A DNA stretch of 38,782 nucleotides from Bacteroidales bacterium (GTDB lineage: Bacteria > Bacteroidota > Bacteroidia > Bacteroidales > UBA932): contig JAKSKE010000014.1 of the NCBI GenBank assembly GCA_024401895.1, forward strand, positions 1-38,782, written 5' to 3'. Shown here in pieces: positions 276 to 5,912 of the stretch. Position 1 is the first letter of the stretch, and the number at the start of each line of letters is the position of its first letter. The notes beneath the pieces are model-generated. The model saw only the letters and a list, made by a program, of their open reading frames with translations, was not told the DNA's origin and searched no databases. The position numbers and the translations under genes are program-made.

Positions 276-2957
276 TTATTCAGTATAGGTAATTCTAAAC
301 TGAACTTGAGAATTGTAGTCATTCGTCACCTGATACCAGAAATATTTAGCGCCATCAGGAATTTTTGATGAGCAATCATATACTTTATCCACTGTTGATA
401 ATGTTTCAGTATAGGTGTTTGTTCCTTCAGCATACTCGGAAATCGCGGTTTTACTGAAAAGTACACCTACAGAAACCTTGGCAGAGGCTCCCTTGTTTGA
501 ATAAATCTCAAACTTTGTAATCTTTCCTGGAATCGGGGTTTTGTTGTATATATATTTCTCCTCCTTGCCGATTAAGATTGCTGGATTCGAACAAAAATTA
601 TTCTCCGCGCCTTTTTGAATAGCTTGTGATTTCGCTCCATCGCTCATCGTGATTGTGAAACCGTCATAAGTATAATCTGCCTCAGCTTTAGTTGCAGTAC
701 TCGTTAATTTGGATCCATCGATAATCAAAGTTTTAGTCTCTCCGCTTCCTCCGGCAGTATATTTCTTGCTGGCTACCTTGCTGTCCTGCATATCAGTAGC
801 GCTTGCCTTGGCCCAGATGGTCTGACCGTCTGTGAGCTGAACGGGGCTGCTATAGGTGTTGGTGAAAGAAGCGGGCTCGGTGTTGGAAATGGCATACTTG
901 ATGGTTGCACCTTCCGTCGCGCAGGTGATAGTTGCCTTACCGCTGCCGTCGAAGGTGATGACGGGTGTGGCGCAAGTGGGAGAAGGAGCTGTGTAGCTCA
1001 GTTCTGTCCATGCCCAGGTTTGTACAGGTGCAAGTTCCCAGGTTGAATTGTATGTCTTCCAAGGGCAATCGGTAAGCTTTCCTGAAACTTTTCCGCCGAC
1101 TTCCCACTCAGTAGGAACATCACGGAAATAAAGTTCCACTTCCTGATTTCCGACCTTGAAGTAAATCCCGTTCCTGTAGCCACCGCTTGTAACATATATA
1201 CCGGTAATCTCTTCGTTTGTAAGTGTCACCGTTACATTCTCTCCAGTTGGAGCGCCTGCAGCAACAAGTTCTGCAAGGCTGGCATAAGTCTTTCCAGGAG
1301 TATTTACTGTGAGGGTGTAGCTGGCAGTGCCGGCCTTGTAGGTCGCGCTGGCCTCAGCTTTGGCGGTGATGGTGGTGGTGCCGGCTGCTACGAGTGTAAC
1401 GGCTCCGGTGCTCTCGTTTACTGTAGCTACGGCCTTATTGCTTGAAGAGTACTTCACAGTAGTTATTACGCCAGAGACAGAAGGAGCGTCGAAGGTTCCT
1501 CCGAGTTCGGCAGTGTAAGATGCCTCAGGGAATGAGAGATTCTGAGGAGTGCGGGAATCGCTGTAAGCGAAGAAGCAAACCTCCTGCCCTGCGATGTTGC
1601 CCGTAGTAGATGAATAGGCGCGCCAGTCTTTAGGTCCATTGTCATCGGAATAAACCCCAAGATATCTGTATATAGGATTATCTTTGTTATCTTTAAATTC
1701 TTTGGTGAATTTCAGGTAATCTCCTTCAAGAACCCAAGTGCCTTCTGTAGTACCGACCCTTACTCCATTGTTGCTGTTTGTAGAATATAGATTTTTAGTA
1801 GCATCTCCGGCAGGACGTATGATATATCCGGCATCAGACGAAGAAATGTTCCATCTCAGATCTGCACTCGGGTTCTTGACAGTATTATTTGTTACATCGG
1901 TCAAAACGGCACTAGGTCCAGCACTGGTTCCCTTGTCGTTTGTCATTGCATAATATTTATCGCCTTTCTTCATTGCGATTACAACAACATCACTTTCCTG
2001 AATGGCATCAAGGCTGGTGAGGGTGAAGGTCTCATTGGTTGTGGGCTTTACGGCGGAGCTCATATCGACGGCAATAGTGTTGACATTTCCGGCTTTGAGT
2101 TCCTTGGCTGTCATTGTAATCTCACGGGTATAAGTGGTCTTGTCTGTGGTGGCTACGATTGTGAGCTTATCTCCAGCGGCAAAGCTGCAAGGCCAGCAAG
2201 AGAACCAGAAAGTGAAGTCGGAAGAGGTGGTGATGCTCTTAACATCCACACTTACTTTGTCGTTGGCTCCCGATGAGGCGTGGTTGAAAGTTCCATCTTC
2301 GTAAACATACCAGCTCTTTCCACTCAGATCCTTGCCCTCTGCAGTAATGGAAACATTCTCGATTTTTTCGCCAGCCTCGATGGGGAGGTTTTTCAGAGTC
2401 ATCTTGCCGATGGCGCTTATAGCCTCGAAATTGGTCGAGAAACTTGTCTGCTGGGAGGTTTTGCCCATAACGCTGCTGAACAGAAAGACAGCCTTGGGAT
2501 CGGCTGAGTTTTGTGCAGAAGTCTGGCTGAGGGGGAGAGAGAGCGTGAGGGTCATAGGATCCTGCGTTTTGTTGAATCCGGTAGATGCGGGATATACGAA
2601 CAAATAATCGTAGCTATCGGCATTTGCTTCCTCAAGCTTAAATGAGAATTTTGCAGTTTTCTTATCCTGAGACAAAGTATATTCTTCCTCGGAAGAAATG
2701 CTGCTTTCATTGACTTTTTCACCGTGCCGAACCTCAATCATTGTAACGCTCTCGCCTTCTGCGTCCCAGGTTACGGGATACTTGGTGCCGTCCTTGGAGC
2801 CGATGGTGACTTTGGTGGCGGGGGTGTCGGTAGAAGCGGTAAGCTCTACTTTGAGGGTGCCTTTTTCTGAACTCAGGGATTTTTCTTCAACCTTGGCGCA
2901 GGAGAAGAGCATTGTTGCCACTATGGCAGCCGATGCAAGATAGAATGACTTTCTCAT
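276..2957 (-). CDS. Large multidomain surface lipoprotein (fimbrillin-like, BIG2, chitobiase-C-like modules)
   Basis: The product is 893 aa from the ATG at 2957. That start is chosen because it begins a classical lipoprotein signal (MRKSFYLASAAIVATMLFSC, acylated Cys20), follows a GGGGAGGAAT ribosome-binding sequence and overlaps the preceding small ORF by ATGA; the open frame upstream is not coding in this register. Visible modules, in approximate residues: fimbrillin-like N-terminal part 25-310, a module starting TSLDAI 311-462, a bacterial Ig-like BIG2 domain 468-552 (SSSNKAVATV then AAGTTTITAKA), an OB-fold-like segment 556-655, a chitobiase C-terminal/FN3-like domain 659-731 (TPVITFDGSGKATIT), and a beta-rich C-terminal part 735-893. 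No catalytic domain is recognised. It is expected at the outer membrane, perhaps in adhesion or ligand binding. Codon use looks more AT-rich than in the neighbouring metabolic genes, suggesting accessory status. Confidence 0.85.
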   Translation of the reverse strand: MRKSFYLASAAIVATMLFSCAKVEEKSLSSEKGTLKVELTASTDTPATKVTIGSKDGTKYPVTWDAEGESVTMIEVRHGEKVNESSISSEEEYTLSQDKKTAKFSFKLEEANADSYDYLFVYPASTGFNKTQDPMTLTLSLPLSQTSAQNSADPKAVFLFSSVMGKTSQQTSFSTNFEAISAIGKMTLKNLPIEAGEKIENVSITAEGKDLSGKSWYVYEDGTFNHASSGANDKVSVDVKSITTSSDFTFWFSCWPCSFAAGDKLTIVATTDKTTYTREITMTAKELKAGNVNTIAVDMSSAVKPTTNETFTLTSLDAIQESDVVVIAMKKGDKYYAMTNDKGTSAGPSAVLTDVTNNTVKNPSADLRWNISSSDAGYIIRPAGDATKNLYSTNSNNGVRVGTTEGTWVLEGDYLKFTKEFKDNKDNPIYRYLGVYSDDNGPKDWRAYSSTTGNIAGQEVCFFAYSDSRTPQNLSFPEASYTAELGGTFDAPSVSGVITTVKYSSSNKAVATVNESTGAVTLVAAGTTTITAKAEASATYKAGTASYTLTVNTPGKTYASLAELVAAGAPTGENVTVTLTNEEITGIYVTSGGYRNGIYFKVGNQEVELYFRDVPTEWEVGGKVSGKLTDCPWKTYNSTWELAPVQTWAWTELSYTAPSPTCATPVITFDGSGKATITCATEGATIKYAISNTEPASFTNTYSSPVQLTDGQTIWAKASATDMQDSKVASKKYTAGGSGETKTLIIDGSKLTSTATKAEADYTYDGFTITMSDGAKSQAIQKGAENNFCSNPAILIGKEEKYIYNKTPIPGKITKFEIYSNKGASAKVSVGVLFSKTAISEYAEGTNTYTETLSTVDKVYDCSSKIPDGAKYFWYQVTNDYNSQVQFRITYTE

Positions 2958-3100
2958 AGTATTCCTCCCCAATCGTTTTCGTTCAAATCGGTAATTGTTC
3001 CGTCCTCGCTTGCGCATAGAACACCGGTGGATACAAGATCCATCGTTTCGCACCGTGGAGACTCGTAGGTCTGTGGTGCCTTAATTTCTGGTTTGATCAT
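2954..3100 (-). CDS. Tiny ORF (48 aa) coupled to the lipoprotein gene
   Basis: An ATG at 3100 opens 48 codons ending in TGA at 2956-2954, which overlaps the lipoprotein ATG (2957-2955) as CTATGA. The peptide begins MIKPEIKAPQTYESPRCE, contains GVLCASEDG (Cys29; the other Cys is residue 17) and ends in an acidic, Trp-containing tail (ENDWGGIL). It has no signal peptide or membrane segment. A second ORF with the same plan sits at 5663-5830 before the other lipoprotein gene, which is the main reason for believing it is translated. No function is known. It could be a coupled leader, a small secreted or modified peptide, or a partner of the lipoprotein. No promoter is seen in the 46 bp before it, so read-through from the endonuclease gene is likely. 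Confidence 0.65.
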   Translation of the reverse strand: MIKPEIKAPQTYESPRCETMDLVSTGVLCASEDGTITDLNENDWGGIL

Positions 3101-3146
3101 AAAAATTGATTTTGTTGTTAATGAATGAATTATGAATAATAATGTT

Positions 3147-5666
3147 TTATAGCCAGTCGTTGGGGTTGTATGTCGATTTGGGGGCGTTGGGCACGTTCAC
3201 AAAGTATTTGAATCCCGTAAGCTTTTCCAGGTCGGAGATGCTCATCATCTCTTTGGCGGAAACCTTTTGCCCCTTGAGCCCGTTGTTGTGCGAGCGCACG
3301 AATGCCACGCACTGAAGTTCGTCGGCGGTGCAGTTCTTCACCGACTTGCCGGTGTTGCCCTTCTTGGTGCGGAGTACGGCATAATAGAACATTGTGGGGC
3401 AGCTGACGTCGCTCCTGCCTCCGAAAGAAATCTTCTTGGGAGAAGCGGAATATCCGTAGCCGTCGGTGAACGACTCATAGTAGCATCCCACAACCTCGTA
3501 CAGCGTGTCGGCGCATACCTTTGTATCTATATAGTCCTCAAGGATGTTCCATCCGCCTCCGCCGGTGTTGTAGCCGCTGGAGTACTGGGGCGCGATGTTG
3601 CTGTAGTAGAATACCTGCTTGTTGGCCTCTACGCTGCACGTCCTCTCGGCGGAGCCCAGCAGGTGTCCCTTGTTGCAACCGCCTCCGGTGTCCTTGCTTT
3701 TGAACTGAATGCCCGAAGGTATGTCCGGGTCAGCCCTGTAGGAATCGTTTCTGCCTGAGCCGCCGGTATAGCAACTGTGCCTTGGCGCCGCAACCCACAT
3801 AGCGCAGTGGTGTTCGGAACTGAAGCATACCGTGTAGTTTCTCCTGCCGGAGAATGAGAATGAGAATGAGTGGTAGGCGTAGTACCAGGTGGAGTTGTTG
3901 TCGTCGATGTTGTTGCCGTCCTTGTCGGTTATGGCGGGCATTTCGGCCCAGCCGCGTGTGGTTTCTCCCGCAGGGGTGTTGGATGCGGTGGTGAATGATT
4001 TCAACTCGCCGGTATATACTTTATCCCCTATCGAGATGGCTGCTTTGTAATAATATGTGGTGGATGCGCTCAGGCTGTACAGGTTCGCTGTAAACGAGTC
4101 GGAAGCGCCCGATATAACTTCGTTGCAGTATGCAGTCTTGCTGAGGTTTGAAGACGAGGTCCCGTAGAGGAAGCAGGCCGAATACGGGGTCTCGGGTGCA
4201 TTGGAGTAAGATGCGCTGAGCACCGCTGAAGTGGTGGTTATGGCCGATGAACCTCCTGTGCTGACCGAAGGCTCGCCGGGAATGACAGGGTCGTCTCCAC
4301 CGCCTCCCCCGTTCTTGTAGAGAACAAGGTTCTTCTGGCTGCCGCCATAGACGGCGAAGCGGGGTGAAGACGGGTTGTACTGCAGGGTATGATAGCTTGA
4401 ATTGCTTGTAATCTTGAGGGTCACGACATCGTTGGTGCCGATGGTGGGAGTGAACGATGTGGTCTTGGACTGGGTGGAATACAGCTTGCAGCTGTTCTTG
4501 GAATTTTCGTTGCCGATATAGGAGTCGCCCACCTTGATGCAGACGGCGCCGGACACGGCGGTGGATTTCACGAATTCCACTTCGTAGGCCGAGGTCGCTG
4601 TAACCGTGGCCATATCTATTGTGCCCTTTTCGCTCTTGCCGGAGGAGGTGCCTGAATACATTATGTTGTCTTTGCATTCGGTTCTCATCGGGACAATTAC
4701 ACCGGACTTGGCGCTGGCTTCATAGCCTATAATGAACCGTCCTCCGGAGGTTATCTGGTCGAGTGTGGTGACCCGTTTCCATCCCTCTTCGACGGGATCT
4801 TTTTCAAGGGTATAGTTAATGGTCTTTATGTGCCCGGCCTGGAACTCGATGTTCTTGCCAAAGTTGAAGGTCTTTTCCTTTCCGTTCACCGAAATCTTGA
4901 TTCCGGTAGAGCTGAAAGGCGTAACGGCCAGATAGAACTTTGCGCTGCTCCCGGCTGAAAGCACGGCGTTGCTTACGCTCAGGGTGGCGTTCTTGCAGGC
5001 CTGGGCCGGGGTGTAAACAGGGCTTCCGCCGGTGATGTCTACGAAGTAGGTACCGGAAATATTCTGGTCGGCCGAGAGCGAAACGCTGGAAATTGTGGCG
5101 CTTTTGCCGGACTCGTTCTTAACGTTAACTGCAATGACGCCGGTGAGCTGATGCATCTTGAGGTTTACCTTCTGCGAACCGGAAACCGATTTTGCCTGAG
5201 CCCAGGCGGCCATTTTGTCCCCGGCAAGGTGAGATCTGCTGTCGGGCCCGTTCTGGGACTGGGAATTTGCGGCTACGGTAATGCTGCCGGACCCCGAATA
5301 TGCGGCGGGAGTAGTTATACCCGAAGTATAGGGATAAATTGCGTACCAATCATAAGAAGCCGCAGGTGAAGGTTCGTTCTGAAGGGTTCCCCTGAAAGTG
5401 CCGGACTCCAAGTCGCTAACCGTGAACCGGGCGTTGCCGCCATACAGGGAGGAATTGGCCGGGGTGCAGAATACCGAGATTTCATCGCCTTGGGCCCAGA
5501 CGGTAGAAAGCCCGTCGTTGACGGTTTTTGTGTCGGTAGCGCTTACGCTGATGGTGTATTCGATGCCCTCTGAGGGTGTCTTAAAATCAATGAACTTGGT
5601 GCATCCGGTGACGGAAAGAAGGATTGCCGTGAAAAGCCCGGCAGACAGGAAGCCAGATTTTTTCAT
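3147..5666 (-). CDS. Lipoprotein with C-terminal DNA/RNA non-specific endonuclease domain
   Basis: The product is 839 aa. Signal peptide II: MKKSGFLSAGLFTAILLSVTGC, acylated Cys22. Approximate layout: fimbrillin-like N-terminal region 30-290 (TKTVNDGLSTVWAQGDEISV is the typical opening), a module starting TTLDQI 294-452 that resembles the TSLDAI module of the neighbouring lipoprotein, an FN3-like beta-sandwich 467-559 (ending YYYKAAISIGDKVYTGELKSF), then a nuclease domain 570-839. The nuclease shows the beta-beta-alpha-metal core: NKGHLLGSAER with the expected general-base His668, followed by FYYSNIAPQ with the metal-ligand Asn690. The usual first Asp of the DRGH motif is Asn here. Its likely role is cleaving extracellular nucleic acid at the cell surface, for nutrition or against competitors. 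The start overlaps a 55-aa ORF by ATGA. The 3' end is 46 bp before the second small ORF, so all four genes may share one mRNA. Confidence 0.88.
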   Translation of the reverse strand: MKKSGFLSAGLFTAILLSVTGCTKFIDFKTPSEGIEYTISVSATDTKTVNDGLSTVWAQGDEISVFCTPANSSLYGGNARFTVSDLESGTFRGTLQNEPSPAASYDWYAIYPYTSGITTPAAYSGSGSITVAANSQSQNGPDSRSHLAGDKMAAWAQAKSVSGSQKVNLKMHQLTGVIAVNVKNESGKSATISSVSLSADQNISGTYFVDITGGSPVYTPAQACKNATLSVSNAVLSAGSSAKFYLAVTPFSSTGIKISVNGKEKTFNFGKNIEFQAGHIKTINYTLEKDPVEEGWKRVTTLDQITSGGRFIIGYEASAKSGVIVPMRTECKDNIMYSGTSSGKSEKGTIDMATVTATSAYEVEFVKSTAVSGAVCIKVGDSYIGNENSKNSCKLYSTQSKTTSFTPTIGTNDVVTLKITSNSSYHTLQYNPSSPRFAVYGGSQKNLVLYKNGGGGGDDPVIPGEPSVSTGGSSAITTTSAVLSASYSNAPETPYSACFLYGTSSSNLSKTAYCNEVISGASDSFTANLYSLSASTTYYYKAAISIGDKVYTGELKSFTTASNTPAGETTRGWAEMPAITDKDGNNIDDNNSTWYYAYHSFSFSFSGRRNYTVCFSSEHHCAMWVAAPRHSCYTGGSGRNDSYRADPDIPSGIQFKSKDTGGGCNKGHLLGSAERTCSVEANKQVFYYSNIAPQYSSGYNTGGGGWNILEDYIDTKVCADTLYEVVGCYYESFTDGYGYSASPKKISFGGRSDVSCPTMFYYAVLRTKKGNTGKSVKNCTADELQCVAFVRSHNNGLKGQKVSAKEMMSISDLEKLTGFKYFVNVPNAPKSTYNPNDWL

Positions 5667-5830
5667 AGTTCGTTAATGGAATCGGTATAGATTGAATTTA
5701 TTACTCCGTCCTCTTCCCAGTCTGAAAAGGATGTGCCTGCACTTGAGCACACAAGTCCTGGCGCAATGCAGGAAAAGTCTTGTATGCAGGGCTTTGTGTA
5801 AAGTTTACGGGCTTTCTGTCCTAGAAACAT
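5663..5830 (-). CDS. Tiny ORF (55 aa) coupled to the endonuclease lipoprotein gene
   Basis: An ATG at 5830 opens 55 codons ending in TGA at 5665-5663, overlapping the lipoprotein ATG (5666-5664) as CTATGA. The peptide has basic residues near the N-terminus, then LYTKPCIQDFSCIAPGLVCS with Cys15, Cys21 and Cys28, then SSAGTSFSDWEEDG. Compared with the ORF at 2954-3100 it shares an aromatic-x-x-Pro start, a following Cys, the core G-hydrophobic-hydrophobic-C-A/S-S, and an acidic Trp-containing tail. There is no Shine-Dalgarno sequence before the lipoprotein ATG here, so translation of the lipoprotein may depend on re-initiation after this ORF. From memory, short proteins with this look are common as hypothetical proteins in Bacteroidales genomes; this was not checked. 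Confidence 0.65.
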   Translation of the reverse strand: MFLGQKARKLYTKPCIQDFSCIAPGLVCSSAGTSFSDWEEDGVINSIYTDSINEL

Positions 5831-5881: not shown

Positions 5882-5912
5882 CAAAGTTACAAATTACAAA
5901 CGTTATTTTCAA
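5882..5912 (-). promoter_or_regulatory. Bacteroidetes-type promoter for the small-ORF/endonuclease transcript
   Basis: On the minus strand TTG (5912-5910) is followed by exactly 20 bases and then TAACTTTG (5889-5882), an exact match to TTG-N19-21-TAnnTTTG. It begins 8 bp past the last base of argH and would give a leader of about 45 nt before the ATG at 5830. It is the clearest promoter in the window and sets the surface module apart from the arginine operon upstream. Confidence 0.75.

Follow-up and report, generated by a model that had tools for sequence, protein, structure and literature searches.

We analyzed a 38,782-nucleotide stretch of DNA (hereafter, the window), which is contig C6 (JAKSKE010000014.1) of a 1.45-Mb Bacteroidales genome (GCA_024401895.1) with an estimated completeness of 76%, and focused on two short open reading frames (ORFs) encoded ahead of lipoprotein genes. 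An initial annotation had reported these ORFs, and both were indeed found: peptide 1, of 48 amino acids (2954..3100, minus strand), and peptide 2, of 55 amino acids (5663..5830, minus strand). Judging by their sequences, both can be read as putative precursors of ribosomally synthesized and post-translationally modified peptides (RiPPs) that resemble the precursors of the linear polyphosphorylated peptides (LPPs). Peptide 1 carries a Y12xxP15 motif in its predicted leader (codons 3067-3056), C29 (3016-3014), and a conserved Ser31 (3010-3008), and the corresponding residues of peptide 2 are Y11xxP14 (5800-5789), C28 (5749-5747), and Ser30 (5743-5741). Both peptides end in an acidic, Trp-bearing tail.

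On the minus strand, the gene order is argH, a TAnnTTTG site, peptide 2, lipoprotein 2, peptide 1, and lipoprotein 1. Lipoprotein 2 (3147..5666, minus strand, 839 amino acids) has a C-terminal Endonuclease_NS domain (PF01223, residues 608-827, about positions 3186-3845, E = 2.1e-24 in a Pfam scan), and lipoprotein 1 (276..2957, minus strand, 893 amino acids) has Big_2 and Fn3_assoc/CHB_HEX_C_1 domains (PF02368, E = 4e-5; PF13287, E = 1.7e-8). As the initial annotation had proposed, both proteins start with lipoprotein-type signals (...MLFSCAKVE and ...SVTGCTKFI), and both are probably exposed on the cell surface. The CTATGA hexamer noted at the two junctions is present, the stop and start codons overlapping by the four nucleotides ATGA, but it is not a trait of the wider family described below, in which this overlap was found in 4 of 81 measured pairs. 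Similarly, the sequence plan said to be shared by the two peptides held for the spacing of Y, P, C, and S and for the tails, but not for the first cysteine (C17/C15), which is not conserved; the sole conserved cysteine is the later one, within the GVxCxS block.

The TAnnTTTG site, TAACTTTG (5882..5889, minus strand), matches the Bacteroidales -7 promoter consensus and has a TTG about 20 nt upstream. Since this 8-mer pattern is found 16 times in the window, counting both strands, its assignment as the promoter of peptide 2, lipoprotein 2, peptide 1, and lipoprotein 1 is only suggestive. The four genes may form a single unit.

A peptide family and its linkage to lipoprotein genes

A first profile, built from the two window peptides, was searched against 61 genomes, including the window's own, and yielded matches in 38 of them at E ≤ 1, a threshold at which some matches are due to chance. 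We then assembled a 26-member profile, its members chosen by a motif rule with variable spacing and, in a few cases, by eye. Their alignment revealed a gapless block, Y-x2-P-x13-C-x-S, followed by a hypervariable acidic tail. Both window peptides are themselves members of this profile and match it with E-values of 4.7e-18 (peptide 1) and 9.0e-12 (peptide 2). Across 151 genomes of the genus, the window's own included, the profile detected 530 matches at E ≤ 0.01, distributed over 104 genomes with a maximum of 25 per genome. The window's genome has six, all of them ahead of lipoprotein genes. At position Y+5, V or I was commonest across 67 members, part of which had been picked by motif.

For a held-out test, we inspected 42 of the 49 best matches from genomes outside the profile; of the seven that were not fetched, six have an in-frame stop inside the match. 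All 42 directly precede a lipoprotein gene on the same strand (40 by an automatic rule and two by eye). In stretches chosen independently of the peptides, 13 of 89 genes passed the same rule, and against this background rate the probability of at least 40 of 42 is 2e-31, for a set that is partly non-independent (genomes G435 and G420 have peptides that match a profile member from G008 exactly or almost exactly). The held-out matches were picked by profile rather than by motif, and all 42 have [Y/F]xxP followed by CxS. Among 91 distinct members, 81 had an automatically recognized lipoprotein start within -60 to +120 nt, most commonly at +11 to +25 nt (63 pairs); of the remaining ten, four precede lipoproteins by eye and six come from outside the genus. 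Homologues beside lipoprotein genes, whose absence would have spoken against the initial annotation, are thus abundant.

The downstream lipoproteins do not belong to a single Pfam family: of ten scanned, eight had no match, one matched Laminin_G_3, and one matched fn3. A fimbrillin label, suggested by inspection of the sequences, was not supported by Pfam and was dropped. For 22 lipoproteins that resemble the N-terminal part of lipoprotein 2, the motif rule found a candidate peptide upstream of nine and none upstream of 13; two of these 13 (G011 C19 and G032 C16) do have an upstream profile match, so the motif rule undercounts. Lipoprotein 2 itself had matches at E ≤ 1e-10 in 36 of the 61 genomes, many of them across the nuclease region, and the lipoprotein search yielded one named relative, a metagenome-assembled Bacteroidales genome from horse faeces.

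The peptides evolve as constrained coding sequences. Differences at the three codon positions, over all pairs without selection, were 0.49, 0.35, and 0.67, which is the pattern of constrained coding sequence. A rough ratio of nonsynonymous to synonymous rates (dN/dS) for the block was 0.145 over 392 pairs preselected at ≥ 60% block identity, with synonymous sites near saturation. The proportion of nonsynonymous differences (pN) was 0.63 in the tail (45 pairs) versus 0.25 in the block (the 392 pairs selected for block similarity). The conserved block and this substitution pattern support the selection on the peptides that had been proposed from the two copies in the window.

Scans of the two peptides and the 26 profile members against Pfam and NCBIfam gave no convincing family (the best stray Pfam match, at E = 0.007, involved two members); when solved structures were searched with a 69-sequence peptide profile, the matches were weak (best E = 0.66), and a search of a plasmid collection gave matches at chance level. 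We found neither the peptide family nor any Bacteroidales LPP-like set described earlier in the open-licence literature searched. At about 40-60 amino acids and with no family match in these scans, such peptides are easily overlooked by annotation.

More divergent members were also detected. In genomes of the genus lacking a strong match, the weaker members often have the cysteine substituted and mostly lie ahead of lipoproteins; for one weak match (G443 C12) the next gene does not encode a lipoprotein, and for another (G425 C77) none is within reach. Outside the genus, three genomes (G147, G329, and G091; loci L297-L300, L302, L303, and L305) encode nine peptides directly after a gene on the same strand, with spacings from a 4-nt overlap to a 33-nt gap. 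Six of these preceding genes encode a secretion signal by eye, and three have unclear or cut-off starts. Several of the peptides end in an acidic Trp-bearing tail, and G147 and G091 each have one further peptide ahead of a lipoprotein. In yet another genome (G281, L306:5448-6557), one ORF of 369 amino acids combines a YxxP..ILCAS peptide and a lipoprotein signal peptide in an in-frame fusion.

A putative maturation enzyme set in the genus and beyond

The peptide block contains YxxP, and we therefore suspected a leader recognized by a RiPP recognition element (RRE). A PqqD-type RRE was found in 127 of the 151 genus genomes, and an HprK-like kinase in 128. The neighbours of most RREs viewed were an HprK/PEPCK-like kinase, a signal-peptidase-like protease, and an MsbA-like ATP-binding cassette (ABC) exporter, with a nucleoside triphosphate (NTP) transferase in some. 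Kinase, signal-peptidase-I (SpI)-like protease, RRE, and ABC exporter occurred together in 50 of 80 windows drawn from the kinase list, and also on contig C3 of the window's genome (L155). In that genome, RRE and kinase matches lie on contigs C3 and C38, with none on the window's contig C6. The predicted key residues are preserved: by residue spacing, the RREs have equivalents of LppB N33 (58 of 58), Y60 (58 of 58), and D70 (57 of 58), the protease Ser/His/Asp pattern is present in 55 of 56 sequences, and the kinase P-loop in 80 of 80. Against solved structures, the genus RRE profile matched the lasso RRE TfuB1 best (E = 8e-5), and the protease profile gave weak matches to LexA and signal peptidase (best E = 0.003).

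In the window the peptides do not lie inside an enzyme cluster, but in two other genomes a family peptide does. In G054, the peptide (20.4 bits) is the first gene of an operon that continues with kinase, SpI-like protease, RRE, NTP transferase, and ABC exporter. In Phocaeicola massiliensis (OY725995.1, a record that carries no annotation), a co-directional cluster comprises the peptide MKENSIETYEAPKVEIIEVEVEKGFATSGGGENGNWTD (38 amino acids, 18.5 bits), a lipoprotein (1,077 amino acids), RRE (L334 7015-7287), NTP transferase, ABC exporter, kinase, and SpI-like protease. Of 64,048 decoy ORFs, reversed or shuffled, not one reached 15 bits. Within the P. massiliensis cluster, Pfam matches were obtained to PF05402 (E = 1e-12) and PF14907 (E = 2e-41). 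No Pfam family matched the kinase or the protease, and their NCBIfam matches fell below the cut-off (HprK_rel_A, E = 0.001; sigpep_I_arch, E = 7e-5), so both are named after the genus profiles. Two peptides 3 to 8 kb from the enzyme set and ahead of lipoproteins in G431 and G344 scored 8-10 bits, near decoy level, and were not counted.

Peptides and enzymes also tend to occur in the same genomes, by statistics that ignore phylogeny. Among good genomes (≥ 90% complete and ≤ 5% contaminated), the RRE was present in 36 of 37 peptide carriers versus 19 of 25 non-carriers (p = 0.014), and the kinase likewise in 36 of 37 versus 19 of 25; the one carrier without an RRE, G390, has the kinase, and the one carrier without a kinase match is G032, which has RRE matches. 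Over all 151 genomes, the RRE counts were 94 of 104 carriers versus 33 of 47 non-carriers (p = 0.003). When 44 of the 47 genomes lacking a strong match were searched with a broader profile at E ≤ 0.05, matches appeared in 14 of 33 genomes with an RRE versus 0 of 11 without (p = 0.009). Outside the genus, a strong kinase match was present in three of four genomes with convincing peptides (G147, G091, and G281, but not G329) versus one of 24 others (p = 0.005), and this lone other genome, G054, turned out to carry a peptide. Two genomes with single unconvincing peptide matches (G166 and G083) were left out of this count; weaker kinase matches occurred in G083 (E = 1e-15) and in G047, one of the 24 others (E = 3e-16), and none in G166.

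Several further enzyme loci were observed. Contig C38 of the window's genome (L156:1-1904) has a second pair of RRE and signal-peptidase-like genes, adjoined by a contig-end ORF with a partial kinase match. In G032 (L211 and L212), one RRE match lies between genes that look glycosidase-like by eye and another is in an ORF of 490 amino acids; the enzyme set of this genome may differ from the usual one. In Prevotella sp. oral taxon 299 (NC_022111.1, L333:7101-8745), RRE, signal-peptidase-like, and kinase matches are adjacent, and no profile-matching peptide was found in the 16 kb around them.

Proposed maturation and rival explanations

Excerpts from Popov et al. (Nat Commun 2026, PMC13381572) describe the LPP core set as an SpI-like protease, a discrete RRE, an HprK-like kinase, an NTP transferase, and an MsbA-like exporter. 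In these excerpts, the precursors have a YxxPxVLxHQxIxFETxxS leader and highly variable C-termini, Asn33 and Asp70 of LppB help grip the YxxP motif, leader cleavage by SpI requires the RRE, and the kinase phosphorylates Ser3 of the core. Compared with the Paenibacillus alginolyticus lpp cluster as described there, the Bacteroidales peptides likewise have a YxxPxV leader, a variable C-terminal region, and a conserved serine (Y+18/19) that would correspond to the phosphorylated Ser3 of the core, and all five enzymes, including the protease Ser-His-Asp pattern, recur in G054 and P. massiliensis. In contrast to the arrangement those excerpts report, the precursors in Bacteroidales are numerous and scattered, each adjoining a lipoprotein gene or another large gene; the NTP transferase is usually not near the set in the genus; and the leader ends in EGV[IL]-C-x-S rather than FET-xxS. 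We do not claim strict membership in the LPP class, because the peptides depart from its full leader consensus and the RREs may be either true LPP RREs or a sister clade; we propose, from sequence, that they work like LPP precursors.

We consider it probable that the two window ORFs are LPP-like RiPP precursors that are processed in trans, each dedicated to one surface protein. The RRE would bind the YxxP of the leader, and the HprK-like kinase would phosphorylate the conserved serine; with a leader cut just before the cysteine, this serine would be the third residue of the core, as in LPP. The archaeal-type SpI-like protease would remove the leader by cutting before [C/A]-x-S, and the MsbA-like exporter would move the core to the periplasm, with one enzyme set serving many precursors. 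In the most speculative step, the finished peptide could serve the lipoprotein of its own unit as a ligand, cap, adduct, or assembly factor. Of the three roles suggested in the initial annotation, precursors of modified peptides is thus the best supported, by the YxxP leader, the RRE, kinase, protease, and exporter set, and the two joined loci; assembly partner is left as a possible role of the finished product.

Several results weigh against this proposal. The precursors in the genus mostly do not lie beside the enzymes: there were six matches in the 80 kinase windows versus 2.2 expected, a weak enrichment whose P of 0.024 is optimistic, as closeness in G348 and G351 (three of the six) had been noticed beforehand. 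The enzyme set is not exclusive to the peptide family, as the RRE and the kinase are each present in 19 of the 25 good genomes without a peptide profile match, and the co-occurrence tests take no account of shared ancestry. G032 has 25 precursors and RRE matches but no kinase match, and G014 (70% complete) has no RRE match, yet carries a weak peptide (E = 0.108) before a lipoprotein. As for the likeness to LPP, the leader residues HQxIxFET that follow YxxPxV in the described LPP consensus are not those of the family, and the conserved serine lies at Y+19 in the family versus Y+18 in those LPPs and in G054. The LPP RRE chain 9x8z_B matched the genus RRE profile with an E-value of only 0.68, the kinase profile had no convincing match among solved structures, and an NTP transferase lies near the kinase in just 9 of 80 windows, being present at L157 and in G054 and P. 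massiliensis.

Some of these points would suit an unmodified cytosolic small protein that chaperones or targets its lipoprotein and whose likeness to an RRE-bound leader is convergent. There is one peptide per lipoprotein gene, the peptides lack a signal peptide, the enzymes lie apart from the peptides in most genus windows, and G032, with its 25 copies, has no kinase match. However, the hypervariable tail is ill-suited to a chaperone, and neither the clustering of peptide and full enzyme set in P. massiliensis and G054 nor the co-occurrence with RRE and kinase fits this explanation, which we regard as unlikely. Quite unlikely, too, is a translational leader or arrest peptide, a short ORF that solely controls translation of the lipoprotein by stop-start coupling or stalling. 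The shared strand, the ATGA overlap in the window, and the position of all 42 held-out matches upstream of a lipoprotein gene agree with such control. Nevertheless, the -4 overlap is rare among measured pairs, the peptides of G147, G329, and G091, from another Bacteroidales family, lie after genes, and the G054 peptide, as first gene of an enzyme operon, is not directly followed by a lipoprotein gene, so the coupled leaders of the initial annotation are disfavoured. The conserved block also spans the N-terminal to middle part of the peptide and leaves the C-terminus hypervariable, and we know of no arrest peptide with such a layout.

Lasso or otherwise cyclised RiPP precursors, rather than linear LPP-like ones, seem very unlikely. 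In their favour, YxxP is also the motif of lasso RREs, and a lasso-type cluster is present in the genus (G013). According to excerpts from PMC13381572 and PMC7533575, paeninodin-like lasso systems share with the present peptides a Y/WxxP leader bound by a PqqD-type RRE, as well as an HprK-like kinase and an NTP transferase as tailoring enzymes. Their B2 leader peptidase (PF13471), by contrast, is rare here, where the SpI-like protease is found instead: among 23 genus genomes searched, the window's own (76% complete) included, B2 was detected in a single one, and that one is not the window's. By eye, the genes around the other RREs included no cyclase-like gene, with no search aimed at cyclases.

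The window ORFs could belong to a genome-wide peptide code for the Bacteroidales surface, a tentative idea to which we give somewhat less than an even chance. One enzyme set would mature up to dozens of dispersed precursors, each modified peptide being the dedicated partner of a co-encoded surface or secreted protein, acting as a ligand, cap, or covalent attachment, with the peptide gene preceding the partner gene in the genus and following it in another family. Prochlorosins are a precedent for many dispersed RiPP precursors served by one modification enzyme, with lanthipeptide chemistry. Several to dozens of precursors per enzyme set would likewise be served in Bacteroidales; the prochlorosins differ in their chemistry, and to our knowledge they are not paired with surface lipoproteins.

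The Discussion of Popov et al. (PMC13381572) states that LPPs are restricted to Bacillota and that their biological role is unknown. The presence of an LPP-type enzyme set and leader logic in Bacteroidales contrasts with that statement, and a peptide code, if true, would provide the first biological role for the class. The enzyme set and leader logic were known before; new here, with respect to the literature searched, are their occurrence in Bacteroidales and the dispersed arrangement paired with surface proteins. The pairing with lipoproteins gives LPP-like peptides a testable role in connection with surface proteins, and P. massiliensis is a named species with a compact locus in which to test it.

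The lasso-type cluster of G013 (L158:2400-10100) contains RRE and B2-like matches, genes that appear asparagine-synthetase-like and sulfotransferase-like by eye, and two WxxP precursors, which carry a parallel block of their own, KKxxWxxPEIIDLDV.

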